From Kordiimonas sp. SCSIO 12603 (lineage in GTDB: Bacteria > Pseudomonadota > Alphaproteobacteria > Sphingomonadales > Kordiimonadaceae), in the NCBI RefSeq assembly GCF_024398035.1, contig NZ_CP073748.1:910001-974000 (forward strand): 64,000 nucleotides of DNA, written 5' to 3'. A program made the translations under genes and the position numbers. The notes under the pieces were generated by a model that saw only the letters and a list, made by a program, of their open reading frames with translations, had not been told where the DNA came from and did not search any database. The stretch's first letter is position 1. Every line of letters starts with the position of its first letter. Below, piece after piece: positions 2,729 through 50,300 of this stretch.

Positions 2729-2805
<77 letters not shown>

Positions 2806-2807
2806 TT

Positions 2808-2844
2808 AAAACCCTTATAGAACTCTGTTCTGTAAGGGTTTTTT
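2808..2844 (+). terminator. Terminator after tRNA-fMet
   Basis: The stem aaaacccttatag pairs with ctgtaagggtttt and is followed by a T-run. It lies just inside the element's left end, so the element supplies its own terminator and may insulate its integrase from rRNA transcription. Confidence 0.85.
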
Positions 2845-2953: not shown

Positions 2954-4147
2954 ATGGAAATACACCGGATTCTAGGTGACAAAGTCAGATTATACCGCCG
3001 TATTGAAGGCGGTGCCTGGCACGCGTCTACATATCTTGCAGGAAAAGAGCGCCGTAAGTCTACTAAACAGAAAAGTCTATCTGCTGCTAAAGAGGTTGCA
3101 GAAGACTGGTATCTGGAACTTCGTAATAAGAAACGTCATGGAGAGCTTGCTTCAGGTAAGACCTTCCGTGACGCATCCAAGAAGTTCGAGGTAGAATATG
3201 AGGTCATTACTAATGGCCGTAGAAGCCCTAAGTGGGTTCAAGGACATAAAGACAGGCTTCGCCTGCATCTGCTGCCTTTCTTAGGCCGTAAACCTCTCAA
3301 GGAGATTACATCGGGTGTCGGACAAGAGTATCGTGTTCACCGTATGACCAAACCCAAGAATTGGGATGACGATCACTTTGATTATGACAAGCTTGAGCCC
3401 AAGCCTTGGAAGCCACCAGCCCGTAATACCATTCATAATGAGATGGTAACCATGAGCATGGTGCTGAAGACCGCACAGCGTCATGGTTGGATAGACTTTA
3501 TTCCAGACTTGTCTGACCCTTACAGACGCCAGAGCAAGGTGGAACACCGTCCCTGGTTCACACAAAAAGAATATAAGCAGTTTTATGAAGCCACACGGCG
3601 TAATGCTGCTAATCCTAAGAACCCTCGTTACAAATGGTATGCGGAGCAATTGCATGATTATGTGCTGATCATGGCTAATACTGGCCTTCGCCCTGATGAG
3701 GCTAAACGTCTTGAATATAGAGACATAGAGATTGTAGACGACGAAGCCACAGGCGAGACCATTCTTGAGATTGAAGTACGCGGGAAGCGCGGTATTGGGT
3801 TTTGTAAAAGCATGCCGGGGGCGGTGCGCCCATATGAGCGTATGCTGGACCGTAATGATCCTGAACAGACGGATCGTTTGTTCCCCTCAGACTTTAAGAA
3901 GATGCTGAACGGCATCCTACACGCAGAAAAGCTGAAGTTTGACCGTAGCGGGAAAGCCCGGACGGCCTACAGCTTGCGTCATAGTTATATATGCTTCCGG
4001 CTACTCGAGGGAGCCGACATTTACCAAGTGGCTAAGAACTGCCGCACCAGCGTTGAGATGATCGAAAAACACTATGCTGCGCACCTCAAAGATATGATCG
4101 ATGCAAGTCTGGTGAATGTGCGTAAGAAAAAGGTAAAAACCATTTAA
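2954..4147 (+). CDS. Tyrosine integrase of the tRNA-fMet element
   Basis: A 397-residue site-specific tyrosine recombinase, expected to recombine the tRNA-fMet 3' end with the element's attP. The N-terminal ~190 residues are the arm- and core-binding part. The catalytic domain shows the first Arg in NTGLRPDEA, the second in YSLRHS (with Tyr where His is usual before LR), and the nucleophile Tyr in EMIEKHYAAH. The ATG at 2954 follows ggggaa. Position next to attL and orientation away from the tRNA are standard for tRNA-directed integrases. It is full length with no frameshift. The target is inferred from position. Confidence 0.93.
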   Translation: MEIHRILGDKVRLYRRIEGGAWHASTYLAGKERRKSTKQKSLSAAKEVAEDWYLELRNKKRHGELASGKTFRDASKKFEVEYEVITNGRRSPKWVQGHKDRLRLHLLPFLGRKPLKEITSGVGQEYRVHRMTKPKNWDDDHFDYDKLEPKPWKPPARNTIHNEMVTMSMVLKTAQRHGWIDFIPDLSDPYRRQSKVEHRPWFTQKEYKQFYEATRRNAANPKNPRYKWYAEQLHDYVLIMANTGLRPDEAKRLEYRDIEIVDDEATGETILEIEVRGKRGIGFCKSMPGAVRPYERMLDRNDPEQTDRLFPSDFKKMLNGILHAEKLKFDRSGKARTAYSLRHSYICFRLLEGADIYQVAKNCRTSVEMIEKHYAAHLKDMIDASLVNVRKKKVKTI

Positions 4148-4271: not shown

Positions 4272-5372
4272 ATGAATGAAGACAGTTTCAAGGAACTTAC
4301 ACCAAATCCTCAAAAGGGATTGTATAATTCAGAGCATGTTATTTCTGGTATTCCTATCCCAAAAACAAAAAGAATTCAGCTTTTTAATTCGGACGAATGG
4401 GAAGAGTTTACAGAAGAGTGGGCCTCATCTCTTCAAGGTTCATATCATCGTTTACGTCGTTATGCTGGTGCTGGTGATCAGGGGCTTGATGTCGTTGGTT
4501 TTATTGAGTCTACCCAGTTCAGCGATGGGTGGGATAACTATCAATGCAAATTCTATGATCACCCATTAACACCTTCTGATGTTTGGGTGGAATTCGGAAA
4601 AATTATTTATTTTTCCTATCAAGGGAGCTATCCACCTCCTAGAAAGTATTATTTTGTAGCACCAAAACAAGTTGGTACAAAACTGGGTAGGCTGCTAGCA
4701 AACTCTCAAAAATTAAAGGATAGTTTGCAAGAAAACTGGAAAAAGTATTGCGAAAGTGACATCACATCTACAATGAAAGTAAAACTTGAAGGTGATCTTT
4801 TAGCTTATTTTGATAATTTTGATTTCACAATATTTGATACGGTTTCACTCGTTGAAATGATTGAGCAACATGTTTCAACTCCGTTTCATGTCACAAGGTT
4901 TGGAGGTGGACTCGGTCCTCGTCCAGCACCTGAAATTCCTCCTAAAGATACAATATCTCTTGATCACCGTTATGTACGTCAGCTTCTTAGTGTATATGCA
5001 CAATCTATAGGAGAGCCTCAGAGGTCAGTTGATTTGTCTTTGTTGGATAAAGACCCTGGCATAAAAAAGAAATTCCAAAGACAACGTGAACGTTTTTATC
5101 ACGCAGAATCTTTACGAAATTTTTCACGTGATACCGTTCCTCCTGGAGTTTTTGAAGAACTCCAAAATGATATTTTTGATGGAGTTGTTGATGTATGCGA
5201 ATCTCAGTATGAGACTGACATAGATCGATTAGCTACCACATTAACTCAGGCCGCAAAAGTCTCGGTTGAGGCTAGTCCGCTTGCTAGCGTAACACGTGTT
5301 CGCGACAAACAGGGCATGTGCCATCAGTTAGTAAATGATGAGAAATTAGACTGGAGTAACGAAGATGACTGA
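4272..5372 (+). CDS. ABC-3C system, nuclease-like component
   Basis: A 366-residue protein starting an operon of three. Residues ~38-110 look like an Mrr/PD-(D/E)xK-type nuclease core: the motif GAGDQGLDVVGF precedes a beta strand ending YQCKFY, giving the D...QxK pair expected for such a fold. The C-terminal half is helical and resembles the C-terminal domain of ABC three-component proteins. The gene overlaps the next by 8 bp, showing translational coupling. ABC-3C sets combine a Rad50/SMC-like ATPase, a small middle protein and a nuclease-like or other effector, and were proposed as conflict systems. No strong ribosome binding site precedes the ATG. The family call rests mainly on the middle component and on gene order; the nuclease activity is inferred. 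Confidence 0.72.
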   Translation: MNEDSFKELTPNPQKGLYNSEHVISGIPIPKTKRIQLFNSDEWEEFTEEWASSLQGSYHRLRRYAGAGDQGLDVVGFIESTQFSDGWDNYQCKFYDHPLTPSDVWVEFGKIIYFSYQGSYPPPRKYYFVAPKQVGTKLGRLLANSQKLKDSLQENWKKYCESDITSTMKVKLEGDLLAYFDNFDFTIFDTVSLVEMIEQHVSTPFHVTRFGGGLGPRPAPEIPPKDTISLDHRYVRQLLSVYAQSIGEPQRSVDLSLLDKDPGIKKKFQRQRERFYHAESLRNFSRDTVPPGVFEELQNDIFDGVVDVCESQYETDIDRLATTLTQAAKVSVEASPLASVTRVRDKQGMCHQLVNDEKLDWSNEDD

Positions 5373-5856
5373 ACTTAAAAAATTAGACGTTACTCTTTTC
5401 AATAGCGCTTTGGAGACCGGCGTTCGCTCATTGGCCATACTTACTGCTAACTATCCTAATACTTTAGATTTACAACGGTTAGTGGACTTCGATTATATGG
5501 TTGTTCACTCAGGTGATGTCGATGGCCCGGAAAGCCTTCACCCTCCATTGCCTATGAGAGAGGGCGAACTCCTTGTGAGGCGTAAAATTATTGAATCTGG
5601 ACTCTCATTAATGATGAGTCGAGGTTTGGTTACGAGAGTAACCTCTTCAAAAGGAATTTTGTATCAAGCCAGCGATTACGCTAAGCCATTTGTTGATTCA
5701 TTTTGCACATCTTATATGCGTTCGTTATTGGAAAGGGCCAATTGGGTGGCTGAGACATTTGGTAATGCAGATACAATAGAACTCCACACATTAATAAACA
5801 GCTTTTTTGATAAGTGGACTACTCAATTTCACTCACCTCAAAAGGTAGGCAGTTAA
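5365..5856 (+). CDS. ABC-3C system middle component (type 2-like)
   Basis: A 163-residue protein. The segment from residue ~29, with LDLQRLVDFDYMVVHSGD, GPESLHPP, GELLVRR and SLMMSRGL, closely matches what I recall of ABC-three component middle component 2 proteins. These are small, winged-helix-like proteins encoded between the effector and the ATPase. It overlaps the upstream gene by 8 bp and ends 4 bp before the ATPase gene, so the three are one translationally coupled operon. The role is inferred to be bridging or regulatory within the complex. Confidence 0.75.
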   Translation: MTELKKLDVTLFNSALETGVRSLAILTANYPNTLDLQRLVDFDYMVVHSGDVDGPESLHPPLPMREGELLVRRKIIESGLSLMMSRGLVTRVTSSKGILYQASDYAKPFVDSFCTSYMRSLLERANWVAETFGNADTIELHTLINSFFDKWTTQFHSPQKVGS

Positions 5857-5860
5857 TTAG

Positions 5861-7723
5861 ATGCAAGAAACTATTAAAATAAGACAGATTTGTTTCTTAG
5901 GTCCCCATGTTGAACCTGCTTCGCTTTCCTTCGCTCAAGGTTTGAGTGTTATATGTGGTGCTTCTGATACTGGTAAATCATTTCTCATTGAGGCTATTGA
6001 TTTCCTTTTGGGTGGAAAAGATTTGCGAAAGATTCCTGAACTTGATGGATATGAGCGCGCACGTATTTCTATCGAGTCTTCCAAAAAAGAAATATGGACT
6101 TTTGAACGAAGTATTGAAGGTGGTAACTATCTAGAATTCAAAGGCATTATTGGTTCGGCAACGGATGTACAACATACGAGTACAATTAATGTAAAACATG
6201 CGGCTGGCAAAGAAAATAACATTTCGGGCTGGATGCTAGGTGCAATAGATTTGCTTGATAAGTCATTACGCAAAAATGCACGTGGAGAATGTCGTTCGTT
6301 AAGTTTCCGTGATATAGCTAGGTTAATCATTGTTAATGAGCAAGAAATTATTCGTCAAGAATCTCCATTCTTAACCGGACAGTTTATAACTAAGACCGCT
6401 GAAAAATCCGTCCTAAAATTACTACTTACAGGCATAGATGATAGCGCAATAGTTCTTGCAGATGCCCGTAAAAAATCTGAAATGAGCGACTTTGCAAAAG
6501 CTGAACTTCTTGAACAATGGATAAGCGACCTAGAGGATGAAATTACTCAGCAAGGGTTTAGTCGTGAAGAACTTAAAGGTAAACTTAGCAGGTTGGAAGA
6601 GTCAATTGCAATAAGCAAAGAACAACTACAATTAACTCAGTCACAGCTTAAAGAAATGACTACCTACAGGCGGATCATTATAAAAGATCGTGAAAAGGTT
6701 GCAGACCGAATAGATGATATTGCGAATATGCTTGAAAGGTTTTTGCTTTTAAAGGCTCAATACATGACCGACCTAGATCGCCTCATGGCAATCGAGGAAA
6801 CGGGCTCGCTTTTTATTCATCATGAACGGGTATCTTGCCCACTTTGCGGGGCTTTACCTGATGCGCAACATAGCAGTACAGAGTGCGATGGTGATGTGGA
6901 AGCTATTGTCACTGCCGCATCTGCGGAAATGGAAAAAATAAAAAAACTTGCTAGTGATCTTGAGGCAACAATATCTGCCTTGCATATAGAGTCATCGCGA
7001 CTTTCGGAGGAGCTTGTTAGTATAGAGGATCACTTTAATGGAATTGATGGTAAAATTAAGCGCGCGATCGCCCCAGAACTAACAGATGCTCAATCAAATT
7101 ATTCTAGGTATGTAGACGAAAGAAGTACAGTTATCTCAAATCTTTCTCTATTTAATAGGTTAGACAAAATCCACAAACAAAGAGAAGAGCTTTTTGGTGA
7201 TGAAGATGGGCAGGATAACGGGGATCAAAAAATTCCAGCAAAGTTATCCTCACAAAGTTTGTATGACTTTTCTCAAACTGTTCAAAAAATATTAGAGGCT
7301 TGGGATTTCCCTGATATAGGCAGTGTTCATTTTGATGAAAAAACGATGGATTTTGTTATTGATGGTAAGCTTCGCGGAAACAGGGGTAAAGGCTTGAGGG
7401 CCATTACACATGCAGCTGCTACGTTAGGTTTATTAGAATTTTGCAAAGAGCACTCATTGCCACACCCTGGATTTGTCGTACTCGATTCTCCGTTGCTCGC
7501 GTATTATAAACCAGAAGGTGAAGATGATAGCCTGCAAGGGTCAACTCTTAAGAAAAAGTTTTATAAGTACTTGATTGAAGAGCACTCAGACAGTCAAGTT
7601 ATCATTGTTGAAAACGAACACCCTCCAGAAAGCTTTGAAAAACAGCTTGATTTAACTGTATTTACAAAAAACCCTAACCATGGGCGTTTTGGTCTTTTAC
7701 CTCCACTTCAAAACAAGGTCTAA
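5861..7723 (+). CDS. ABC-3C system Rad50/SMC-like ATPase (DUF3732-like)
   Basis: A 620-residue ATPase. Walker A is GASDTGKSFLIEAIDF near residue 32. The middle ~240-440 is coiled coil, broken by a zinc-hook-like CPLCG near residue 326. The C-terminal lobe carries Walker B in FVVLDSPLL near residue 544. This is the Rad50/SMC layout, with the two ATPase halves brought together by an antiparallel coiled coil. It is the last gene of the ABC-3C operon. Such ATPases are thought to sense DNA ends or foreign nucleoprotein and activate the partner nuclease. The assignment to the family is good; the trigger is unknown. Confidence 0.8.
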   Translation: MQETIKIRQICFLGPHVEPASLSFAQGLSVICGASDTGKSFLIEAIDFLLGGKDLRKIPELDGYERARISIESSKKEIWTFERSIEGGNYLEFKGIIGSATDVQHTSTINVKHAAGKENNISGWMLGAIDLLDKSLRKNARGECRSLSFRDIARLIIVNEQEIIRQESPFLTGQFITKTAEKSVLKLLLTGIDDSAIVLADARKKSEMSDFAKAELLEQWISDLEDEITQQGFSREELKGKLSRLEESIAISKEQLQLTQSQLKEMTTYRRIIIKDREKVADRIDDIANMLERFLLLKAQYMTDLDRLMAIEETGSLFIHHERVSCPLCGALPDAQHSSTECDGDVEAIVTAASAEMEKIKKLASDLEATISALHIESSRLSEELVSIEDHFNGIDGKIKRAIAPELTDAQSNYSRYVDERSTVISNLSLFNRLDKIHKQREELFGDEDGQDNGDQKIPAKLSSQSLYDFSQTVQKILEAWDFPDIGSVHFDEKTMDFVIDGKLRGNRGKGLRAITHAAATLGLLEFCKEHSLPHPGFVVLDSPLLAYYKPEGEDDSLQGSTLKKKFYKYLIEEHSDSQVIIVENEHPPESFEKQLDLTVFTKNPNHGRFGLLPPLQNKV

Positions 7724-7787: not shown

Positions 7788-8366
7788 TTACACCCACATC
7801 CGACTAACCAACTCGCGCCTTTCATCCCCTACAGCATCAACATAGATGGCCGTAGTGGACATGTTCGCATGGCCTAACATTGATTGTACGATGTTGAGCG
7901 GTACGTTGTGGGTAACAGCATGTATTCCAAATGAGTGCCTTAATCCTTTGCAGGTTCCATATGGCATTTGGGTATTGATGTTAGCTTGATCCATCGTAGC
8001 TTTTATTAGTCGCCAGGTGTGAGAGCGCGACCAAGCCCATAGTATGTCTTGAGTATGGTTTTTTAAGCTGTGAACAGCGGCCAACTCTTCTAAAAACGCC
8101 ATAGGTACAGGGATAGGTCTGTAATGCGGTGTGGCGCGGCGTTTCTTGAGGGAGCGGATAACAATCTCACCTCCAGCCATATCTACTCGGTCAGCAGTTA
8201 AATTCAGCGCCTCGCTAACACGGCATCCGGTATAATATAAAAGTTGGCAGAGGGTTCTAACCTTTTCAGGTTGCTTTTGAGCTGCTTCAAAGAAGGCTTG
8301 ACGCTCATCTTGCGTTAAATAAAGCCGTTTTCCTTGTGCGTTATAAAGTGAGTAAGTCAGCGCCAT
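7788..8366 (-). CDS. Compact tyrosine recombinase (catalytic domain only)
   Basis: A 192-residue recombinase without the N-terminal core-binding domain of full integrases. Catalytic residues are visible: first Arg in YTGCRVSEALN, the H/K-x-x-R box as KGLRHSFGIHA (Lys in place of His), then LGHANMSTTAIYVDA with His and the nucleophilic Tyr. It is oriented away from two inverted 27-bp dyad sites at 8462-8488 and 9044-9070, the first lying 95 bp upstream of its start. That placement suggests the dyads are its recombination targets (inference). It lies between the ABC-3C operon and a lipoprotein gene. Intact and unlikely to be a remnant, since all catalytic residues remain. Confidence 0.85.
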   Translation of the reverse strand: MALTYSLYNAQGKRLYLTQDERQAFFEAAQKQPEKVRTLCQLLYYTGCRVSEALNLTADRVDMAGGEIVIRSLKKRRATPHYRPIPVPMAFLEELAAVHSLKNHTQDILWAWSRSHTWRLIKATMDQANINTQMPYGTCKGLRHSFGIHAVTHNVPLNIVQSMLGHANMSTTAIYVDAVGDERRELVSRMWV

Positions 8367-8461
8367 AATTCATTCTCGCGTGTACCCCCTTTATTTGTAC
8401 AGAAACGCGCGGTTTTACCCTACGCGTTCCCCCTTCTTTTCCCTCTATGCCGCGGCAGTCA

Positions 8462-8488
8462 TGCAACAGAATTGTACATAGTGTTGCA
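8462..8488. repeat. Dyad site 1, candidate recombination site
   Basis: 27 bp made of a left arm TGCAACAGAAT, a 5-bp centre TGTAC and a right arm ATAGTGTTGCA. The right arm is identical to the matching arm of site 2 read on the opposite strand; the left arm differs from a perfect palindrome at two bases. Size and shape resemble a tyrosine recombinase crossover site (dif is 11-6-11), or alternatively a regulator operator. Confidence 0.7.
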
Positions 8489-8619
8489 TGGACGGTGTTC
8501 TGTTTCCGTCTAAATCTCTGTTTTTCTAGAGGTATGTCTAGGTTGGGTAGGTGCACATTAGTTCATGATCTTGAAGCAGGGAAAATACAGTTCAGATGGT
8601 TCACTTGATTGGAAGAAAT

Positions 8620-9021
8620 ATGAAAGCTCAGTTCTTGGTTCTCATAAGCTCATTGGCGTTATTAACGGCATGTTCTGAGCAACGAGATGATCAGCATTTA
8701 TTAGTGGGAGAATGGAAAAAAGCTCACAGTCCCAAAATGGATATTTTTGACGATGGTGTTGGTGTTCACTTGCTTGAGGAGTACGTAATTTATGAACGTG
8801 TTGAGAGCGGCGACCAACTTGTTTTCAAAATGCTTGAGGTAAACTTCGGGGGCGAACTTAGCTATGAGATAGAGATTTCTTGCGACTATGAAGTTTCATC
8901 TGATCGGTTGGTTACTAAAGACTGTGAAGTAGATACAAGCCCGGCTATTACAAATGGCCAAGATTTCTTTGATCAAATTGTGGAAGATGCACTGCAAGGC
9001 GTTTGGGCGAGGAAATATTAA
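8620..9021 (+). CDS. Small lipoprotein, unknown function
   Basis: A 133-residue protein from the ATG at 8620, which has ggaag at the right distance; an upstream in-frame ATG at 8596 lacks one. Residues 1-18 form a lipoprotein signal peptide with lipobox LLTAC and Cys18. The mature part is acidic, mainly beta by pattern, and has two Cys in the later half (ISCDYE and TKDCEVD) that could form a disulfide. I do not recognise the family. The gene is the only one between the two inverted 27-bp dyads, so it may be a cassette or invertible segment served by the adjacent recombinase. Confidence 0.75.
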   Translation: MKAQFLVLISSLALLTACSEQRDDQHLLVGEWKKAHSPKMDIFDDGVGVHLLEEYVIYERVESGDQLVFKMLEVNFGGELSYEIEISCDYEVSSDRLVTKDCEVDTSPAITNGQDFFDQIVEDALQGVWARKY

Positions 9022-9043
9022 TAAAATCAATGTCTTGCAGCTA

Positions 9044-9070
9044 TGCAACACTATGTACAATAGTGTTGCA
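9044..9070. repeat. Dyad site 2, candidate recombination site
   Basis: 27 bp with perfect 11-bp inverted arms (TGCAACACTAT and ATAGTGTTGCA) around GTACA. Its reverse complement matches site 1 at 25 of 27 positions, so the two sites are in inverted orientation with a 555-bp interval. Confidence 0.75.
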
Positions 9071-9135
9071 CATTGGGTCAATCTTCAATTTAGGTAATGT
9101 CATTTAATCTTAATAAGAGTGATTGAATAAGGATT

Positions 9136-9202: not shown

Positions 9203-10555
9203 TTGATCGTGAAGAAAATAGCTATAGGTGGTTTTTTAGTGATTTTAGTTGCGGTCGCAGCTTTCTATTATTTGTCTCCTCAAAATATTTCGAATACAAA
9301 AAAGATACGTATTATTGGAGAAGCATACGCTCCGCTTACTGCCTTGGCTGGTATGAAGAGTCAATTTGAGCAAGAAACTGGTATTGAAGTAGAGATCGTA
9401 GAAAAAGATCATATGGCGGTCGTTACTGAGTTATCTCAGGAGCTAAGCTCTAGAAATGTCACGTACGATTTAATTCTCATGCCCCACCGTTTATTAGGGC
9501 GATTAGTTGAAAACCAACAGGTACAGCCGTTGACGCCCTTTTTAAAAAAGGATGCTCAAGCCTCATTTAAACCTGAGCAGGACCTTTTTGAAAATTGGTG
9601 GAAAGAAACTGGGTGGTACAAAGGGGAACTGTATGGTTTTCCGTTCACTAATTTAACCATGTATGTTGCCTATCAGAAAGATTTAATAAACGATCCAGAG
9701 GAACAAAAAAGATTTCAGACAAGGTTTGGTCGTGACTTAACAGTTCCAAAAAATTGGTCCGAATATATAGAAGTAGCAGAGTTTTTTAATCGACCAGAGG
9801 AGGGCCTTTTTGGCACATATATTCAAGGACAACAACATGTAGCTTTATGGTATGAGTGGCTTAATTTTGCCTATTCATTTGGTGGAAGAATTTTAGAAAC
9901 GGAAGCGGGAAGCTCCTATGGCGATATCGTGGTGAACTCGCCACAAAACCTTGAAGCAACCAGAGTGTACATGGATTTAGTAAAGTATAGCCCGCCGGAA
10001 ACACTAAATTACAACTGGGATGATGCTTTAGCATCATTGCAGCAAGGCAGAGTCTTCATGGGAATCATTTGGCATGATCAAACCCCTTTTCTTGAAGATA
10101 TAGAGCAATCGAAAATGGCAGGCAAGATTGGCTACACGACAATCCCTACCAATAGTGGGGCTCCTAAAAGCCAGTTGGAGGGATGGTCATATTTGATTCC
10201 TAAAGAGTCTAAAAACCCATCAGAGGCATTTGAATTTATTCGATGGGCAATGTCTCAATCTGTTCAAGTAGCACAAACCTTGGCCGGAGGAGCGTCTGCG
10301 TTAAAATCGACCTACCAAGACGAAAACGTCAAATCTATTCCATACGTACCTGTTTTTCTAGAGAGTGTACCGGTTGCTATACCTAAACCAACGGTCCCTG
10401 AATCTGCACAAATTACAGAGGTTATGCAAAAAGGACTTTCTGAGATATTAGTTGGTAAAGTTACGCCAAAAGATGGATTAGATAATATCGCTATTCAATT
10501 AAAAGAAATCTTAGGTGATAAAGCTCAAATGAGATATTTACCGAATAAAAATTAG
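9203..10555 (+). CDS. Membrane-anchored ABC substrate-binding protein (sugar-type)
   Basis: A 450-residue type 1 extracellular solute-binding protein. Residues ~4-25 form a single hydrophobic anchor without a lipobox Cys, so it is likely membrane-tethered. The binding-protein fold follows from IRIIGEAYAPLTAL, with YDLILMPHRLLG, FENWWKETGWYKG, FPFTNLTMYVAY, YEWLNFAYSFGGR and EGWSYLIPKES. The start is TTG at 9203 or GTG at 9209, both behind aaggaaa. It heads an operon with two permeases, an ATPase and a methyltransferase. The ligand is unknown; by family a sugar, polyol or glycerol-phosphate-like compound. Each listed motif has a counterpart in the C-terminal domain of the NACHT protein at 14391-17678, which is unusual and suggests common ligand or partner recognition. 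Confidence 0.88.
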   Translation: MIVKKIAIGGFLVILVAVAAFYYLSPQNISNTKKIRIIGEAYAPLTALAGMKSQFEQETGIEVEIVEKDHMAVVTELSQELSSRNVTYDLILMPHRLLGRLVENQQVQPLTPFLKKDAQASFKPEQDLFENWWKETGWYKGELYGFPFTNLTMYVAYQKDLINDPEEQKRFQTRFGRDLTVPKNWSEYIEVAEFFNRPEEGLFGTYIQGQQHVALWYEWLNFAYSFGGRILETEAGSSYGDIVVNSPQNLEATRVYMDLVKYSPPETLNYNWDDALASLQQGRVFMGIIWHDQTPFLEDIEQSKMAGKIGYTTIPTNSGAPKSQLEGWSYLIPKESKNPSEAFEFIRWAMSQSVQVAQTLAGGASALKSTYQDENVKSIPYVPVFLESVPVAIPKPTVPESAQITEVMQKGLSEILVGKVTPKDGLDNIAIQLKEILGDKAQMRYLPNKN

Positions 10556-13328: not shown

Positions 13329-14404
13329 TGTTTAAACGGCAAGAAATATCGAGCTTGGACGAGATAAAATTACCTACTTTACAAAAGCATGGTTATGCAG
13401 GCTGGTATCGTAAAGTATCTAGTGAGTCCTACGCGGTGGATCCATGGGAAGCATATAAACTAGTGCTAGCTACTAGTAGCTCTGGTTGTTTAGGCACTTT
13501 GCAAAACCTGTTTATTAAACACTGCTCTATATCAGAAAGCGAATTTTTTGATGTTTTTTCTGAACAGGAGCGAGAGTGGCTAATTCAGAATGAAATTGTA
13601 CAGGAAACCGAAAAAAGGTGGTCTTCAAAATATTGTCTATTGGTATGCTTCGGATTTTATTTGTTTGTTGATTGGCCTGAAAAAAGTAGCAATGAGAAGT
13701 TGGTTTCTAGCCAGACATATTTAAGCAGCAGTTCATTTGACTGTATTCATTCGATTAAAAAGTATAGTGCATCAAATGATTTATTTAATACTTTAGATGT
13801 TGGCTGTGGCTCGGGCTTAATTTTACTACAGTTATCAAAAATCTCGGAAAAAGTGTTTGGGATTGACATAGATACTGAAGCAGTGAAATTGAGCCGAATT
13901 AATTTAGAATTAAACGGAGCAAAAGCGTCGTTGGTTAATAGCGATGTCGCAGATTATCTCTTTAAAAAAGCTGGTTTTGATCTAATCAATGTAAATCCAA
14001 CTTGGCGTATTGTTCCTGAAGGAGTTAATTACCCTAATCCAATAGCGAGAGTGGGAGTTGGGAATGATGGATTGGACTACGTAAGGTATCTGTTAAAGGC
14101 ATTACCTTCTTTATTATCAAACGCAGGTAAAATGTTATTACGCGTTGATATTCCGTTGTCTGAGGGAGCAAAAGAAGAACGATACTTTGATTTAAAACGG
14201 TATCTACCTCCTCAATATAGATTTAAGATGTACCCTCTTAAAAAGGTATCTGCTTCACAACAATGTCGAGTAAGCGCAGATACGTGTTCTTACCTAAATC
14301 CTGAAATTGATCTGAGTGATTTGGTGCGTGTTTTTGAAACGAAATATCGACAGTTAAATATTTCAGGCCTTCAAGAAATAGAGTGTGTGATTACCTTAAA
14401 GTAA
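13328..14404 (+). CDS. Class I SAM-dependent methyltransferase
   Basis: A 358-residue protein. The N-terminal ~150 residues are of unknown type, perhaps substrate-recognising. The Rossmann methyltransferase core starts at LDVGCGSGLILLQL (motif I), then FGIDIDTEAVKLS (motif II region), and NVNPTWRIVPEG where amino-methyltransferases have NPPY/F. The layout resembles PrmC/RsmC-type enzymes that methylate glutamine, protein or rRNA, with Thr replacing the second Pro. The GTG start overlaps the ATPase stop by 1 bp, so it is translated with the importer. Its 3' end overlaps the convergent NACHT gene by 14 bp. The substrate is unknown. A methyltransferase as the last gene of an ABC importer operon is unusual. 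Confidence 0.8.
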   Translation: MFKRQEISSLDEIKLPTLQKHGYAGWYRKVSSESYAVDPWEAYKLVLATSSSGCLGTLQNLFIKHCSISESEFFDVFSEQEREWLIQNEIVQETEKRWSSKYCLLVCFGFYLFVDWPEKSSNEKLVSSQTYLSSSSFDCIHSIKKYSASNDLFNTLDVGCGSGLILLQLSKISEKVFGIDIDTEAVKLSRINLELNGAKASLVNSDVADYLFKKAGFDLINVNPTWRIVPEGVNYPNPIARVGVGNDGLDYVRYLLKALPSLLSNAGKMLLRVDIPLSEGAKEERYFDLKRYLPPQYRFKMYPLKKVSASQQCRVSADTCSYLNPEIDLSDLVRVFETKYRQLNISGLQEIECVITLK

Positions 14405-17400
14405 GTGATTTATTTTCTAAAACAACGGTACTGATAAACTTGTTTAACATAATCATCTCTTCCTGAATTTTACATTCAGGTGTACTGATTATTTTATGAA
14501 GAACGATTGTAATTGCTTTCCAAATTATATCTGATTCAATTATTTGATTTCGAGGTTGGCGTACCCACATAGCTTGATACGAAACCTTATGTGCCTCTTT
14601 GGCGAATGATGGGTTGACGCTACCTTTTATAGGGGTTGTGCAGCCACGTTCTAGGAAATACTTTTGAAAGTCACTAGTTAAGGTTTGTAGTGCGATTGCA
14701 TAGGCGCTATCGAAGTGTGCAGAACCATTGGGGAAAACAAAAGACCAAACATCTGCTTGAGCTGTTTTCCTTCCTGACACAGTAGGTATAAAATGTAAGC
14801 CGAATTCCTGTGTCTCAAGCGTTTTGTTAACATTGATATCGTCCCACATAAAGCAACTGAATACCCTATGATTGTCCATTACCTCAGTCTTTAATTCATC
14901 CCAATCCCAGTTAAGCCCATTATATTTATCTGTTCCAAAACTTTGATAAAAACTTCTAAATGATTTTGTTGCCTTCAATATGGTAGGGGTGGTGAGTTCT
15001 AGAGCGCCATATTCGTAGCCGTGGTCTTTTCCAATTATTCTACCATTATATGCATACAAGAAATTTAGCCACTCATGATATAAACATGGGTGAATGTTAA
15101 GACTTTCTAGTTCATTTTTTGAAAGCTTGTTTTCTTTGATTTGCATGTACAATACATCAGGGTTTGGAGCGGATTTGTGTGCAAATGCCCCTCCCTGGTG
15201 ACCGAAACCTAAGACGTTTTCCCGTTCTTCGGTTACTTGCAGCGCTTTTTGATACATTTCTTGAATCGTTTGTGGAAGTTTACGAGGTTTTTCCATCATA
15301 TCCAGAGAATATAGCGCTCTCATAGTTAGAGATGTAAATGGAATACCGTATGGAATACCTGTAAACCATGAGCTTTCTTTCCACCAATCCTGATAGAAAC
15401 ATTCAGCGGGTGTTGCAAAGCTTTGAATAGGCCTATTTTCAAATAAGCACGTTAAAGGTCTTAAGATTCCAGATGCTGCAAATTTTGGTATCAATCTTTG
15501 AGGCATCAAAACAATGTCGTAGTCATTGATGTTGTTTAATTTTTCTTCATATTGAAGTATTGAACAACCATCATACGCTAGAGAGAGACCTTTGCCTTCC
15601 AGGTACTCTTGCAACATTAAAAATGGAAGTTGTTCCTCGCCAAGAATGTTTAGTGCCCGTCTTTGGTTGTGATTGTATGCAGCTTCTGTTGAGTTTGGAG
15701 CTTTAGTGTTTTTGATCAAACACAAATATTCATATTCTATCAGGTTCAAAATATGGGCTTTAGTTTTATATCGATTTTTTAAGTCTTTAAAAATGAGATC
15801 TGTTTGTGAAGTAGTAGATTGAAGTAGCCCCGATATGATCTTATTTGCGATGTTGGGCGCCATTTCTTTGTCAATTAAATCAAAGACGATACCTCGTATT
15901 AAATCGTTCGAGTAATCTAGTGAGGATCCATTAGAAATAGCATTCGCAAATAAGCGTAATATATCAGTTTTCAGTGTGTCTTTTGACCACAAAAAATGTA
16001 GAATTTTGTATAGTTTATTACTGTTATATTCTTCTAGTGAATGTTCCAGTAGTAGTGTAAATGTGCCAATATATGAAGGCTTCGCAAGTAAAAGCGGGAT
16101 TATTTCATTGCGTTCCCAATCCCCTCCCATAAAATTGTTGATTTCTTCGGTGAGTTGGTGATGCAAAATTGAAAGCGCACTACGTCTGTACTTGCCAACG
16201 TTTTTCCTCTCTTGCATGGCTTTTGGCACGAAGCTTTGTAGATATGTAGCAGCAAAGAAGTCTCGTATATTGATATCAAGGAACGAAACGTTTTCTCGTG
16301 AATATTGAAAAATTCTAGATCTAGATAAGACGGTATCTAGAAGGTCTTTTGGGTTTTTACCTAGACTACTGGAGTTTCTGCTTGCTTCTTTTTGAAGATA
16401 GTCGGATGCAATATTTTTTGCTTCAACGTATGAAACAGTTTCTACTTCTCGAAATAGTAGTGTTAAACTAAAGTGTTGAATAAATTTATAATAATCTTCG
16501 ACGTATATGTTAGCCTGATCGATACCTCCTTTCGTATTTTTTTCTAGTAATCTAGTGATGAGTGCTTCGAAAAAATTCAAAGAAGTGAGGGCTTCTGGAA
16601 TGGGATTTTGGTCAAATATTTCTAACGCTACTTCCAAGAATAATGGAATTTTGAATAGTTGTTCAATTCTTGTACTATTTTCTAAATGCTTTTTCAGGAA
16701 TACGGCTGGACTAGCTGTAGTACTTTCAGAATCTAACTGTTTTACTGAGTGATTTGTATTTTGCTGTAATTGCAAGATAAATTCTTGAATGTCATCACTG
16801 GTAAAAGGGATTATTTCGGCTCTGGAAAAATTATGCAATCTATTCAATGATACAATAGGTCTTGAAAAACATATTACCCGTATATTTTTAAATTCTGATG
16901 ATATTATATTTAAACTGTTACAAAATTTATTTTGGAAATCGGGTGCAACCTCATCCAGTCCATCTACAATTAAGAGTACCTCTTTACTCGGGTCTTGCGA
17001 GGATGCATTCGGCTCTTGTGAAGATGCATTTGGCTCTTGTGAGGATGCATTCGGCTCACAAAATTGGATAATATCAGCAATACTGATGTTCGAATTTCTA
17101 AGGTCGTTATTACTTGAGAGTAAATCGAACCAGGTTGGTACTCCATTTCTTAGCGTATCAAACCAGTCGTTACCTGTGTCTTTGGCGTGAACAAAAATTG
17201 GAATGACTTCCGGGTTTACGCGTATTGCTTCTAAACAAAGTATTTGGGCAAAAAGAGATTTCCCATGGCCTGCGTTAGCTGTGACGATTACATTTTTGGG
17301 GACGTTTTTCTTATTGGGGATGTTGTTCTCAGTAGTGAGCTCAGTAATGGATTTAACATCAACTGTTTCTGGGGGAAGCCCATTCTCCATCTCAGTCTTG

Positions 17401-17678
17401 TGATATGGTAGACAAACTAAACTAGTTTCCCCTTCGACATCCAATAGTTTCGAAATATAGAATTGTTTCCAATTAATTTTGGATAAACCTACGTTAAGGT
17501 CGGTTGATTTTTGTAGTTTATTTGCCAGTCTGGCACGATATAAGCTCAGATTTTCTTCTAGGCTGTCTGTTTTGTTTTTTTTCTTTTTAGATAATTCACG
17601 TTTTTCCAGCCATTGGAAAAGATAGGCTATTCCCATCACAATAATTAGTAGGGATATAATATAAATCTCGAGACCCAT
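14391..17678 (-). CDS. NACHT NTPase fused to an ABC substrate-binding-protein domain
   Basis: A 1095-residue protein. Residues 4-22 form one membrane helix followed by basic residues, which predicts the rest is cytosolic. The NACHT/STAND NTPase spans ~125-420, with a P-loop ending AGHGKS at ~136-141 and Walker B plus acidic extension LLIVDGLDE near 235-243. Residues ~420-670 are helical and may serve as a repeat or linker domain. Residues ~675-1070 form a solute-binding-protein domain aligning with the importer protein at 9203-10555 through YDIVLMPQRL, DWWKESSWF, GIPFTSLTM, HEWLNFLYAYNGR and DVWSFVFP. The start codon directly follows the stop of the membrane-protein gene. NACHT proteins in bacteria are known anti-phage sensors in which the C-terminal part senses the trigger. 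A binding-protein sensor domain is new to me. Function is inferred. Confidence 0.85.
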   Translation of the reverse strand: MGLEIYIISLLIIVMGIAYLFQWLEKRELSKKKKNKTDSLEENLSLYRARLANKLQKSTDLNVGLSKINWKQFYISKLLDVEGETSLVCLPYHKTEMENGLPPETVDVKSITELTTENNIPNKKNVPKNVIVTANAGHGKSLFAQILCLEAIRVNPEVIPIFVHAKDTGNDWFDTLRNGVPTWFDLLSSNNDLRNSNISIADIIQFCEPNASSQEPNASSQEPNASSQDPSKEVLLIVDGLDEVAPDFQNKFCNSLNIISSEFKNIRVICFSRPIVSLNRLHNFSRAEIIPFTSDDIQEFILQLQQNTNHSVKQLDSESTTASPAVFLKKHLENSTRIEQLFKIPLFLEVALEIFDQNPIPEALTSLNFFEALITRLLEKNTKGGIDQANIYVEDYYKFIQHFSLTLLFREVETVSYVEAKNIASDYLQKEASRNSSSLGKNPKDLLDTVLSRSRIFQYSRENVSFLDINIRDFFAATYLQSFVPKAMQERKNVGKYRRSALSILHHQLTEEINNFMGGDWERNEIIPLLLAKPSYIGTFTLLLEHSLEEYNSNKLYKILHFLWSKDTLKTDILRLFANAISNGSSLDYSNDLIRGIVFDLIDKEMAPNIANKIISGLLQSTTSQTDLIFKDLKNRYKTKAHILNLIEYEYLCLIKNTKAPNSTEAAYNHNQRRALNILGEEQLPFLMLQEYLEGKGLSLAYDGCSILQYEEKLNNINDYDIVLMPQRLIPKFAASGILRPLTCLFENRPIQSFATPAECFYQDWWKESSWFTGIPYGIPFTSLTMRALYSLDMMEKPRKLPQTIQEMYQKALQVTEERENVLGFGHQGGAFAHKSAPNPDVLYMQIKENKLSKNELESLNIHPCLYHEWLNFLYAYNGRIIGKDHGYEYGALELTTPTILKATKSFRSFYQSFGTDKYNGLNWDWDELKTEVMDNHRVFSCFMWDDINVNKTLETQEFGLHFIPTVSGRKTAQADVWSFVFPNGSAHFDSAYAIALQTLTSDFQKYFLERGCTTPIKGSVNPSFAKEAHKVSYQAMWVRQPRNQIIESDIIWKAITIVLHKIISTPECKIQEEMIMLNKFISTVVLENKSLTLR
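16993..17055 (-). repeat. Three tandem 21-bp units inside the NACHT gene
   Basis: Three in-frame 21-bp copies (16993-17013, 17014-17034, 17035-17055) differ at a few positions and encode three heptads of the type PNASSQE/D. They sit between Walker A and Walker B, just before Walker B. Copy-number change would keep the frame and alter a surface loop. Confidence 0.9.
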
Positions 17679-36356: not shown

Positions 36357-36406
36357 TCAGGCTCATAACCTGAAGGTCGTAGGTTCAAATCCTACTCCCG
36401 CAACCA
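36357..36406 (+). repeat. attR core, 50-bp direct repeat
   Basis: An exact copy of 2756-2805, ending in the tRNA-fMet CCA. No 5' half of a tRNA precedes it; the upstream flank is A/T-rich element DNA. It marks the right end of the integrated element. Confidence 0.93.
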
Positions 36407-36410
36407 AATT

Positions 36411-36444
36411 AAAGGGTCGTCCACCATCTAGTGGGCGGCCCTTT
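36411..36444 (+). terminator. Terminator right of attR, likely the tRNA operon's original one
   Basis: The stem aaagggtcgtccac pairs with gtgggcggcccttt, with G-T pairs and a 6-nt loop. Its place five bases after the CCA repeat suggests it followed tRNA-fMet before integration. A near copy lies at 39836-39869. Confidence 0.8.
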
Positions 36445-44335: not shown

Positions 44336-47300
44336 ATGTCAGATCAGTTTGTTACATCTGAAGAAAATCAAGTTAATACTACAGTTGCAGGAAATCAGGC
44401 AGATGCCTATGTTGCAACCTTTGAGGTAGGCCATCCAACACTTGCAGGCGGTCATATCATTGTGTGGCACTCAGCGGGGCAGGATGGAGATGGTTCTTCA
44501 GGCATCTATGGTCAGCTTTATGGAGCAAATGGTCAGCCGGTTGGTTTTGAATTCCGTGTGAATGAAAACGTAGCTGGGGATCAGCAGCATGCAGTGGCCG
44601 AAGTGCTGGCGAACGGTGATATCATTGTCGCATATAGTAATGGTTCTACTTATTTTTTCCAACGTCTGAGGGTGGATAATGATGAACTGGTTCGTGTTGG
44701 CTCGGAAGTATCAATTGATTCTGTCGTAAGTGATGGTTTTGAAATTACAGCATTGTCGTCAGGCGGCTTTGTTGTGACGTATCAATCCACTCAAAATGGG
44801 CAGTTTGAAGTATTTAGTCGTATTTATACTGCAGATGGAACTCTTGAAGGAAATACCTTTCAGCCTACTACGGCTTCCTTCTTTGCCCGGCCTGATGTCG
44901 TTGAGCTATTAGATGGCCGTTTACTGTATACCTATAGCGGAAATACAGGCACGGCTGGTGAAGGGGTCCATGGGCGGATTTTCAATTCTGATGGTACGCC
45001 AGCGGGAGCACAGTTTACGATTGATCAGGGCACCGGATCACAAACTTTCCCTCAAAGCGTTGCACTTGAGAACGGTGGTTTTGTTACAGTTTGGCATTTC
45101 CGTAATGGTTTTGTAGTGGGCCGTGCCTATGATGCAGATGGCAATGCTACCACAGATCAATTTAATATTTCTACGACAGCAGTGAGTGGTGATGGTGGAA
45201 GAGATACAGAACCTACTATAACTCTTCTTTCAGATGGTACGCTGTTTGTTGCCTATGAAGGTAATGGCAATATTCTTGGGCAGAGACTAACGGTTGAAGG
45301 TACACCGATTGGTGATGAAATTATTCTCAATGAGGTAACTGGTGGCCAGCAGTTTAATGTTGAGGCTGCACTTAATGCGGCTGGTGATGTTGTTGTCAGC
45401 TTCCAGTCAGATACTGGTGACGGTAACGGCTTTGATATCATATCAAGGGTGCTGTCGTTTGATGAGTTTGTACCAACGGGTGGTGATGGTAGCACAGCTG
45501 TAACGAACCCGGATGCACCACCTGTGGTGACAGACCCTGCTGATGAACATCAGAATAATACTTATGAAACAGGTAATCAGGAAAATCCAAGTATAGCTAC
45601 TTTTTCGTCTGATCATCCAACACTTGCAGGCGGTCATATCATTGTGTGGCACTCAGCGGGGCAGGATGGAGATGGTTCTTCAGGCATCTATGGCCAGCTT
45701 TATGGAGCAAATGGTCAGCCGGTTGGTTTTGAATTCCGTGTGAATGAAAATGTAGCTGGAGATCAGCAGCATGCAGTGGCCGAAGTACTGGCGAATGGTG
45801 ATATCATTGTCGCATATAGCAATGGTTCTAACTATTTTTTCCAACGTCTGAGGGTGGATAATGATGAACTGGTTCGTGTTGGCTCGGAAGTATCAATTGA
45901 TTCTGTCGTAAGTGATGGTTTTGAAATTACATCGTTGTCGTCAGGCGGCTTTGTTGTGACGTATCAATCCACTCAAAATGGGCAGTTTGAAGTATTTAGC
46001 CGTATCTATACTGCAGACGGAACTCTTGAAGGAAATACCTTTCAGCCTACTACGGCTTCCTTCTTTGCCCGGCCTGATGTCGTTGAGCTATTAGATGGCC
46101 GTTTACTGTATACCTATAGCGGAAATACAGGCACGGCTGGTGAAGGGGTCCATGGGCGGATTTTCAATTCTGATGGTACGCCAGCGGGAGCACAGTTTAC
46201 GATTGATCAGGGCACCGGATCACAAACTTTCCCTCAAAGCGTTGCACTTGAGAACGGTGGTTTTGTTACAGTTTGGCATTTCCGTAATGGTTTTGTAGTG
46301 GGCCGTGCCTATGATGCAGATGGCAATGCTACCACAGATCAATTTAATATTTCTACGACAGCAGTGAGTGGTGATGGTGGAAGAGATACAGAACCTACTA
46401 TAACTCTTCTTTCAGATGGTACGCTGTTTGTTGCCTATGAAGGTAATGGCAATATTCTTGGGCAGAGACTAACGGTTGAAGGTACACCGATTGGTGATGA
46501 AATTATTCTCAATGAGGTAACTGGTGGCCAGCAGTTTAATGTTGAGGCTGCACTTAATGCGGCTGGTGATGTTGTTGTCAGCTTCCAGTCAGATACTGGT
46601 GACGGTAACGGCTTTGATATCATATCAAGGGTGCTGTCGTTTGATGAGTTTGTACCAACGGGTGGTGATGGTAGCACAGCTGTAACGAACCCGGATGCAC
46701 CACCTGTGGTGACAGACCCTGCTGATGAGAACCAGGTGAACACTGAAGTTGCTGGTGATCAGCGTGAGCCAGATGTTGCGACCTTTGGAGCTGATCATCC
46801 GACACTTGCAGGTGGTCATGTGATTGTTTGGCAATCGAGTGGCCAAGATGGTGATGGTCAGGGTGTTTATGGTCAGCTGTATGGTGCCGACGGTCAGCCT
46901 TTAGGCTTTGAGTTCCAGATAGATGACAGCACAGCCGGTGATCAAACTCTTCCAAGCGTTGATGTTCTCGCAAATGGTAATATCATCATTGTTTGGTCTA
47001 CAGAGGGTGTCGGGAGTAACAAGCAGCTTGTTGCTCAGGAATTCAGTCTTGACGGAACCACGTTGGTACGTGTTGGTGAAGAGCGGATCATTGATGATAA
47101 TGTAGAGCTTGAAACAACAAATCAGAATTATACAGATTATTTTAATGCCCCGTCTATTGAAGCTCTTGATGGAGGTGGTTATGCGGTTACCTGGTTTGAT
47201 CTGACAGATAACAGTGTGCATGTGAATGTATATGATGGCGTGGGTAATCTTCTGAATGCAGATACTATCAGCAACATTGGGTCGGTTGATTTTACCACTG

Positions 47301-50300
47301 TCTCTATCACCGAGCTATCTGATGGTCGCATTGCTGTAGGCTATAACCAGTATACCGCCAATGCATCTATCCGCAATGAAGCATATGTACAGATTTATAG
47401 TGCAGATGGTACGAGGTCTGGTGTTCGTTTAACCTTGAATGATACGACCCCGAACTATCAAAGTGCAGTGCAGCTTGATGCACTTGCAGATGGTGGTTTT
47501 GTAGCTATTTGGACAACGGAAACAATCCCTTCCATTACGAGTGATGCTGCAGATCAGGGAGTGTTTGTTCGTGTGTTTGATGCAAATGGAAACCCGACAA
47601 CACCGGATATTCCAGTTGCGCCTGCTGGTGGTTTAGGGGTTCTTAGTCGTAATGCTGTGATTAATCTGGAGGACGGTACTTTCGTTGTGCTCTGGGAGCA
47701 GGAAGATACCGGTTCTGGTGCGAACGTTCATGGACAGCGTTTTACTGTTGAAGGTGAGAAGGTTGGTGATGAACTTATTATCAATCAGGCTCTTCCTGGC
47801 ACCCAGGAGCAGATTAGCGCAGAACTTAATGCGGCTGGTGATGTTGTTATCAGCTTCCAGTCAGATACTGGTGATGGTAACGGCTTTGATATCCAGTCAA
47901 GAGTGCTTGATATTGATGCACTTGCACCAGTGCCTGAACCACAGCCTATCGAGAACCCGAACCCTGCACCAGTTGTAACAGACCCGGGCAGTGATACAGA
48001 TATCAACACCACAGTTGCAGGAGATCAGACAGAGACCTCTGTTGCAACCTTTGGGTCAGATCATCCAACACTTGCAGGCGGTCATATTATTATATGGCAA
48101 TCTGAAGGGCAGGATATTGACGGCTCCACAGGTATCTACGGACAGCTTTATGATGCAAACGGCCAGCCAGTAGGTGGAGAGCTTTCCCTTGCAGTTGCAG
48201 GTGGTGCTCAGGAACATGCAGAAGTGGCTGTTCTGGCCAATGGTGATTTTATTGTCACCTATTATGGTGAAGATGTGAGCGGAACAGTAGGTGTTAGAGC
48301 ACAGCGCTTCTCTTATGATGGTGATACTATTGTACAGGTTGGTGATGAGCTGACCATTGATGCCAATGCGGTTTATGATCATGCAACAGTGGTTGATGAA
48401 GGTATTTCCAACCCGCCACAGGTAGAAGCGTTAAGCGATGGTGGCTATGTTATCAGCTGGTATGATGCTTCGATTAATTCAGTGTCAGTCAGCTTCTTTG
48501 GAGCTGATGACAGTTTAGTTCATACATCAAGCTTTGGTGGACATTCTTCGCAATCTTATGTGCCGTCAGTGCTGGAGCTTTCTGATGGTCGGGTGCTGTT
48601 TACCTGGTCTAACTATATTGCCAATGCCAGTGTGCGTGAAGAAGCATATGGCCGTATTTATAACGCAGATGGTACGCTGTCTGTTGATACATTTGTGCTT
48701 AATTCCAATGTACCGGATTATCAGAATAATGTTTCTACCGCTGCACTAGATAATGGTGGCTTTGTAGCAACCTGGCATGTTGAGACCACGACCTCTTTCA
48801 CAGGTCAGGACCGTGGTGTGTTTGTACGTATTTTTGATGCGAACGGTCAGGGTGTTACAGCTGATATTGAAGTTGTTCCCGTTGGTTCTGATCAGTGGTA
48901 CGGCACCAGTAATGTAACAGTTCTTGATGATGGTACGTTTGTTGTATTCTGGGAACAGAGCGATGCAGGCTCGGGTGTTAACATTTATGGGCAGCGTTTT
49001 GATGCGGATGGTGCCCGTATAGCTGATAGCTTTGTTGTGCATGAAGATAGCACAGGCAATCAGGAACTGCTTGATGCAGAACTTAATGCGGCTGGTGATG
49101 TTGTTGTCAGCTTCCAATCAGATACTGGTGATGGTAACGGCTTTGATATCGTATCAAGAGTGCTGTCGTTTGGTGAGTTTGTACCAACGGGTGGTGATGG
49201 TAGCACACCAGACACGAACCCGGACGCACCACCTGTGGTGACCGACCCTGCAGATGAGAACCAGGTGAACACTGAAGGTGCAGATGACCAGCGTGGTCCT
49301 GATGTAGGTGTGTTTGGAGCTGATCATCCAACGCTTCCAGGTGGGCATATTATTATATGGCAGTCTGAAGGGCAGGATGGTGATGGTTCCGGTGTATATG
49401 GTCAGCTTTATGATGCTAATGGCCAGCCAGTAGGTAATGAATTCCGTGTTCATGAGAACTTCCAGGGTGAGCAGCGAGCTGCGTCAGTTGATGTGCTTGA
49501 GAACGGTAATGTGCTTGTTGTCTGGTTTGGTGAAAGCGTTGATGGTACCAGCCAGGTTAAAGCACAGGAGTTCAGCTATGATGGGACAACACTGAACCGT
49601 GTTGGTGAGGAACGTGTTCTGGATGATGCGGCGAGCTCTGAAGATTCACCATTCCCGGATTATATCAACCCAGTTCAGGTTGAAGCGCTGGATGACGGTG
49701 GCTATGCCGTTGCTTGGTTTGAGCGTAATACCAATGCGGTTCGTATCAATATTTATGATGAGAATGATACGCTGCTGAGCAGCGACAGTATTGGTGGTAT
49801 CGGTTCAGTAAACCCATCTACTGTCAGCCTGACAGAGTTATCTGATGGCCGGATTGCTCTTGGATGGAACCAGTATGTTGCTAACACCTCTGTTAGAGAT
49901 CAGGCGCATGCCCGTATCTATAATGCTGACGGTACGCTTTCGGTTAACACACTGACCTTGAACTCTACGACAGCTGAATATCAGAATGCAGTTCAGCTTG
50001 AAGGGCTTGCTAATGGTGGCTTTGTAGCGACCTGGAATGTTGAGACAGTCTCTTCCTATAGTGGAGCTAATGATCTTGGCGTTGTTGTGCGTATTTTTGA
50101 TGCGAACGGTGTGCCGACCAGTCAGGAAATACAGGTTACCCCTGTTGGAGCGACGAGTTGGTTTAAGACCAGCAGTCTTGTAAGCCTTGATGACGGTTCG
50201 TTTGTTATCTTCTGGGAGCAGGAAGCTTCAGGGGTTGGAGCTGAGATTTATGGGCAGCGTTATTCAGATGTTGGTGAGGCCATTGGTGAGAGCTTTGTTG

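Follow-up and report, generated by a model that had tools for sequence, protein, structure and literature searches.

A compact tyrosine recombinase and an inverted pair of sites around a lipoprotein gene on a Kordiimonas mobile element form a candidate invertible switch

The genome of Kordiimonas sp. SCSIO 12603 is a single 3.85-Mb contig (NZ_CP073748.1), of which we analyzed a stretch of 64,000 nucleotides (the window; all coordinates count from its first letter). It contains a mobile element bounded by two copies of a tRNA-Met 3′ end, and within this element a compact recombinase gene stands next to a small lipoprotein gene that lies between two inverted sites. The features are as follows.

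2756 to 2810, plus strand: attL of the mobile element, at the 3′ end of tRNA-Met
2954 to 4147, plus strand: integrase of the host integrative mobilizable element (Phage_integrase, 22.8 bits, below the Pfam cut-off of 27.1)
7788 to 8366, minus strand: compact tyrosine recombinase of 192 aa, catalytic domain only (Pfam Phage_integrase, E = 1.6e-24)
8461 to 8489, plus strand: recombinase-proximal recombination site, arms 8461-8471 and 8479-8489, core TTGTACA at 8472-8478
8490 to 9042, no strand: intersite segment of 553 bp, for which inversion is proposed, partly on the basis of comparison with relatives
8596 to 9021, plus strand: cassette gene for a small lipoprotein (lipobox LTAC by eye; likelier start at 8620)
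9043 to 9071, minus strand: distal recombination site, inverted; core TGTACAA at 9054-9060 as read on the plus strand
9052 to 9081, minus strand: promoter-like sequence, TTGAC (9077-9081) and TACATA (9052-9057) with a spacing of 18, partly within the distal site and directed into the segment
19501 to 21135, minus strand: MobA-type relaxase of the host element (Relaxase, E = 7.4e-25)
36357 to 36413, plus strand: attR of the mobile element, a 57-bp copy of the tRNA-Met 3′ end, 96% identical

With an integrase, attL and attR at a tRNA gene, and a relaxase, the host element is an integrative mobilizable element; coupling-protein-like genes were also recognized on it by eye. The LmuA, LmuC, and LmuB genes of a Lamassu-type defence system (4272-7723) directly adjoin the recombinase, and related elements have a TIR-type gene (L044) or a bSEFIR gene (L008) near their recombinases. 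A second element of the same genome (L008, 10209-11618) sits at another tRNA-Met copy and has a closely related integrase, with 95% DNA identity over 1.8 kb.

The recombinase has R49, K74, R143, H166, and Y175, which we take to be the catalytic residues of a tyrosine recombinase (Arg, Lys, Arg, His/Trp, Tyr), and this motif places it in that family. Among 68 aligned recombinases, R49 and K74 are each kept in 67, and R143, H166, and Y175 in all 68. Its sequence relatives in the PDB are XerC-like, XerD, XerA, and IntI4.

The initial annotation had described two 27-mers, at 8462-8488 and 9044-9070, that match each other at 25 of 27 positions on opposite strands, and we reproduced both the coordinates and the match. 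It had divided them into 11-bp arms and a 5-bp center, which comparison with relatives corrects to a 29-bp site of 11-7-11 build with a 7-bp core. Once the proximal site is taken as 29 bp, the recombinase, correctly given as 192 aa, starts 94 bp away rather than 95 bp. The center had further been called nearly symmetrical (GTACA/TGTAC) and open to several outcomes. The 7-bp core is in fact asymmetric, so that the pair has a defined orientation, which is inverted; the two cores are identical (TGTACAA), and inversion is the expected main product. A search of the 64-kb window with the 27-bp pattern, allowing up to three mismatches, returned only the two known sites, and the same search matched in 0 of 100 shuffled sequences. 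Between the sites we found a single ORF with a lipobox, in line with the one small lipoprotein gene annotated there. Its product had no match in NCBIfam, only a sub-threshold lipoprotein-site match in Pfam, and no match at E 0.01 in 18 other genomes of the genus; a single-sequence fold model (pLDDT 50.7) was too poor for use. Just past the distal site, at 9203-10555, a solute-binding protein of an ABC transporter is encoded, and a nearby 1,095-aa minus-strand protein (14391-17678) appears, by eye, to combine an NTPase-like part with a stretch resembling this solute-binding protein.

The unit recurs within the genus. A second copy in the same genome (L008, contig positions 165068-166768) encodes a recombinase with 90% identity to that of the window and two other lipoproteins, and it also has two inverted sites; the unit is present in three congeners (L042, L043, and L044) with recombinases 73 to 84% identical. 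Across 19 genus genomes, a site search with up to two mismatches found 10 places in 4 genomes, two per close recombinase, and a reversed-pattern control gave 0 matches; with up to one mismatch, 396 genomes of the order yielded the same 10 places only. The initial annotation had suggested looking for the motif near related recombinases: in the 19 genomes, it stands beside 5 of 5 close ones (at least 73% identity), inverted at each, and nowhere else. The two inverted sites with an identical core that characterize an inversion system are thus present in the window and at the four other close loci. A looser pattern (3 mismatches) gave 7 matches in the SCSIO 12603 genome versus 2 in the control, the three extra places being unpaired, while the exact pattern had no match in viral contigs. 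An additional scan of a contig collection recovered one relative only, which was taken as L042. The segments at the five close loci measure 553, 966, 1,170, 1,454, and 1,754 bp, and their recognized cargo genes all point away from the recombinase. By eye, a signal peptide or lipobox is present in most of the ten cargo proteins. Three cargo lipoproteins are homologous (28 to 40% identity), and the window lipoprotein resembles no other cargo protein of these loci.

Relatives of the recombinase were found in 22 of 396 genomes sampled from the order, 18 of 367 from the class, and 9 of 377 from the phylum (own genome included). Up to about 12 kb was fetched around each, from genome contigs of which some may be plasmids. 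For 61 recombinases at 59 loci, excluding the window, we compared every 24-mer within −300 to +30 of the recombinase start with the surrounding sequence and accepted copies with at least 20 of 24 matches. Inverted copies were found for 38 of the 61 and direct copies for 4, compared with 1 and 0 in block-shuffled sequence. A second scan for dyad geometry with an identical 7-bp core, which included the window and 10 plasmid loci, found pairs for 46 of 72, with 4 direct and 2 in shuffled sequence. From these 46 we set aside L107, L110, L132, and the plasmids L068, L072, and L073 as chance-like, added L051, L055, and L133, which were seen in the 24-mer scan only, and left out L141 and L142 as near-copies, which together account for three recombinase rows, two of which have a pair. 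In the final tally, which involves our own judgment on individual rows, an inverted site pair accompanies 41 of 59 nonplasmid recombinases, the window included, and no pair was accepted in the other 18.

Reading both scans together, we assigned the pairs to three layouts: type A (16), with both sites upstream of the recombinase and about 130 bp apart; type B (19), with the recombinase between the sites, sometimes together with further genes; and type C (6), with other genes between the sites, beside the recombinase, as in the window. A TTGAnn-16/17-nAnnAT sequence lies between the sites at 5 of 11 type-A loci (L112, L122, L136, L137, and L139). Across the paired sites, and divergent from the recombinase, homologous exported-type proteins are encoded at 6 of the 11 (L054, L112, L115, L122, L136, and L139), and their pairwise BLASTP values are below 1e-12 in 15 of 15 comparisons. 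Promoter scores pointed toward the recombinase in 8 of the 11 type-A loci examined and in the other direction in 3; tried as a test for isomers, this scoring favors the recombinase direction and cannot separate them. A search of 13 genus genomes gave no new type-A loci. Among 11 listed type-B loci, 4 (L108, L109, L117, and L119) have a lipoprotein-like gene about 20 to 150 bp past the distal site. The five TGCAACA-type enzymes group as a clade (100/99) in a tree of 68 recombinases, inside a larger clade (98/90) to which all ten plasmid enzymes in the tree also belong. The layouts are clustered but not of single origin (24 changes versus 39.4 in shuffles). At six type-A loci (L054, L112, L115, L136, L137, and L139), the proximal site opens, by eye, with ATG AAA CAG after a ribosome-binding-like sequence, so that a short leader ORF may start at the site itself. 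At L127 (G770:C63), the recombinase lies between the two copies of an exact inverted repeat of 122 bp, at −246 to −125 and +587 to +708; the recombination site lies at the inner ends of the repeat, which extends beyond it.

Sites recombined by tyrosine recombinases must match each other across the overlap, whereas operators need not. We aligned about their dyad centers the two sites of 33 pairs that had been found without any condition on the center; they come from the 38 of the 24-mer scan, from which we removed L141 and L142 as near-copies, L107 and L125 as non-dyad rows, and L127. In the 29 odd-centered pairs, mismatches occurred at 0 of 203 core positions but at 86 of 464 positions in the eight adjacent to the core on each side (25 inner-arm and 61 outer-arm). 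The 4 even-centered pairs, which are outside this count, likewise matched at all of the central six positions. When mismatch positions were shuffled within the central 21, 24 were expected in the core and the minimum in 20,000 shuffles was 10; with one pair retained per core (23 pairs) there were 56 mismatches, none of them in the core. Requiring at least 20 of 24 matches caps the number of mismatches in a chosen pair without in itself barring them from the center. Across loci, on the other hand, the five innermost positions are only 25 to 55% identical, with 23 different cores in 29 loci. As judged from these alignments, identity of the core within loci combined with its change between loci appears to be the footprint of strand exchange by a tyrosine recombinase and not of operators. 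Outer-arm mismatches exceed inner-arm ones in 19 pairs versus 7, with 3 ties (sign test, 0.014); as weaker evidence, this excess would fit inner arms that trade places on inversion.

In the present orientation, the promoter-like TTGAC is antisense to the lipoprotein gene. At 5 of 5 close loci, TTGAC is found immediately beyond the distal site, 17 to 18 bp before the TACATA within the site, and would form with it a putative promoter whose −10 is weak. A simple promoter score, used without a shuffle control, found outward matches in the TTGAC stretch equal or better at 3 of the 5 loci. The segment has one and the same orientation in 5 of 5 close assemblies, a pattern that a dominant state or rare inversion would produce, and the near-identical type-B pairs L047/L141 and L135/L142 are collinear, with no inverted isomer.

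The best explanation, and one we consider probable, is an invertible ON/OFF switch of a small exported lipoprotein carried on an integrative mobilizable element, in which the cassette between the sites has also changed. The recombinase would bind all four 11-bp arms of the inverted pair of 29-bp sites, and strands would be cut and exchanged across the identical 7-bp core, inverting the 553-bp lipoprotein segment. The putative promoter, whose TTGAC is fixed outside the distal site and whose TACATA falls within it, would be sense after inversion, as opposed to antisense now, and its orientation relative to the gene would set the lipoprotein ON or OFF. We infer that inversion takes place and switches expression, and the inverted orientation would be the ON state. 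The initial annotation had proposed an invertible surface-gene segment or a gene-cassette system. The association of motif and recombinase agrees with that proposal, and the operator alternative it had named is disfavored. As for the alternative arrangements it had suggested looking for, differing cassette content was found between otherwise homologous loci, but neither an inverted nor an empty form was seen at the five close loci or in the two near-identical type-B pairs.

Alternatively, the sites may serve mainly to exchange or capture whole cassettes, as in pdif modules and recombinase-mediated cassette exchange, with inversion as a by-product; this is possible, though we think it rather unlikely. 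In its favor, L008 and L042 have homologous flanks on both sides (72 to 78% DNA identity), but between the sites they align only over about 33 bp at the distal end and 52 bp at the proximal end, so the cassette appears to have been either replaced or diverged far faster than its surroundings. Against exchange, fast divergence fits one cargo protein of the two loci that is still homologous, at 32% identity, and homologous recombination in the flanks could also replace a cassette. Again in favor of exchange, the window and L008, with recombinases 90% identical, have unrelated cargoes. G076 has a homologous pair of cargo genes, and the 14 kb fetched there contain no recombinase of this family; in the part of this stretch that we scanned, there were two dyads, which are unlike one another. 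Three of five Shewanella plasmids (that of Shewanella baltica and 2 of 4 further ones, some partly fetched) have one variable gene bounded by a second site whose core is different; this arrangement looks like heterospecific sites for cassette exchange and would be closer to a cassette than to a switch. However, the loci examined included no empty site, direct-repeat array, or multi-cassette array, and identical inverted cores favor inversion over integration. A broader version, to which we give a similarly low probability, is natural recombinase-mediated cassette exchange, in which matching-core inverted pairs would let mobilizable elements both flip and swap exported-protein cassettes, incoming elements would re-equip resident ones, and the same enzyme family would elsewhere run promoter switches and single-site resolution.

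A role of the dyads as nonrecombining operators, serving the recombinase or another regulator, is highly improbable. One site does lie in the leader of the recombinase gene, near-dyads would suit regulators that act as dimers, and isomers were not found. Operators, however, should have conserved arms and a free center, and the reverse was found; because the core is identical within a locus while the arms vary, and because it changes from locus to locus, the operator reading is disfavored.

A tblastn search found relatives at 31 to 50% identity in 41 plasmid records. They include single-domain recombinases from Komagataeibacter, roseobacters, and Shewanella, for which the annotation is site-specific or tyrosine-type integrase. 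They belong to the same protein family as the window recombinase, and some have a site of the same build: a Sedimenticola plasmid relative has AAACACTA-TAGGTAA-TAGTGTTT, and a single upstream dyad of this build is present at L067, L069, L072, L074, and L151. They differ in that no like-core inverted partner was accepted within about 5 kb of the ten recombinases first fetched, three chance-level matches having been set aside, and in that several lie near parA or rep genes. The Aquimarina plasmid (L073) has two direct copies 97 bp apart, and in three of four whole plasmids the best dyads had no partner above 18/29. The single site of some plasmid relatives probably resolves dimers. Extending this to the window, with dimers of the excised circular element being resolved and the second site incidental, would suit the nesting of type-C recombinases among the plasmid enzymes, the neighboring parA and rep genes, and the single dyads, but dimer resolution does not need a second inverted site with an identical core, which at 5 of 5 close loci is kept though cargo and flanks change, and we give this reading very little weight. 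The Shewanella sites lie at 14692 and 15922 (L149), 3451 and 4840 (L153), and 4853 and 5230 (L155); the inverted-type sites have TACACCA beside the recombinase and TTGCCTA at the distal position (recombinase strand). A WGR-domain gene adjoins the recombinase in 4 of the 10 plasmids first fetched (L066, L070, L072, and L075).

Among known systems, the FimB/FimE/HbiF-type invertases act with fimS-like invertible promoters. Like the window system, they combine a tyrosine recombinase of about 200 aa without an N-terminal domain, inverted sites, and exported products; the window recombinase also has below-cut-off NCBIfam matches to the DNA invertase models NF007371 (43 bits) and NF007370 (36 bits). 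The type-A relatives are similar in build to a fimS-like element, and in several of them the sites enclose about 130 bp containing a promoter-like sequence. In contrast to Fim, where a promoter and not genes lies in the segment, type C places a gene between the sites: the window segment holds the lipoprotein gene, and TTGAC is outside the distal site. Its sites are also long 11-7-11 dyads, the locus is on a mobile element, and the recombinase scores higher against XerD/XerA models than against Fim.

The Vpma system of Mycoplasma agalactiae, in which the recombinase Xer1 reportedly shuffles a multigene family next to one promoter, differs from a single cassette on a mobile element. Its lipoproteins are phase-variable (PMC2268961), and as in our reading of the window, they are surface lipoproteins switched by a tyrosine recombinase. 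The pdif (dif) modules of Acinetobacter plasmids likewise carry genes flanked by inversely oriented sites of about 28 bp whose inner and outer arms differ. There, XerC and XerD arms flank a 6-bp spacer and modules must alternate, whereas the window has a dedicated recombinase, a single pair, and a 7-bp core; compared by eye with the pdif table in PMC13141974, its sites do not have the XerC and XerD half-sites with a 6-bp spacer. An identity with XerCD/pdif was rejected: the window sites are TGCAACA dyads with a 7-bp core that occur in the genus only with a dedicated recombinase. An integron cassette system was also rejected, as the integron integrase model scores 60 bits against a cut-off of 265 and the sites are inverted rather than direct attC, and an integron-type array was set aside for the same orientation, no arrays having been found in the SCSIO 12603 genome or the genus search. 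Fim-type invertases and pdif modules are functionally closest to the window system, which by the membership tests belongs to neither. We call the family undescribed because the literature searched, by title or abstract opening, has nothing on it or on such pairs in Kordiimonas, and this is the whole basis of the term.

If the invertase reading holds, recombinases now annotated as integrases or recombinases on plasmids would become recognizable as a class of dedicated DNA invertases, which could be found by a simple rule, an 11-7-11 site pair with an identical core. The family may link single-site recombination on plasmids with phase variation on chromosomes, and a defence-carrying mobile element would bear variable exported lipoproteins of its own. 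The core rule also makes switching testable from existing long reads. Elsewhere in the window, at 44336-56869, a 4,177-aa ORF has long near-identical repeats and, by eye, probably encodes a giant surface or secreted protein.
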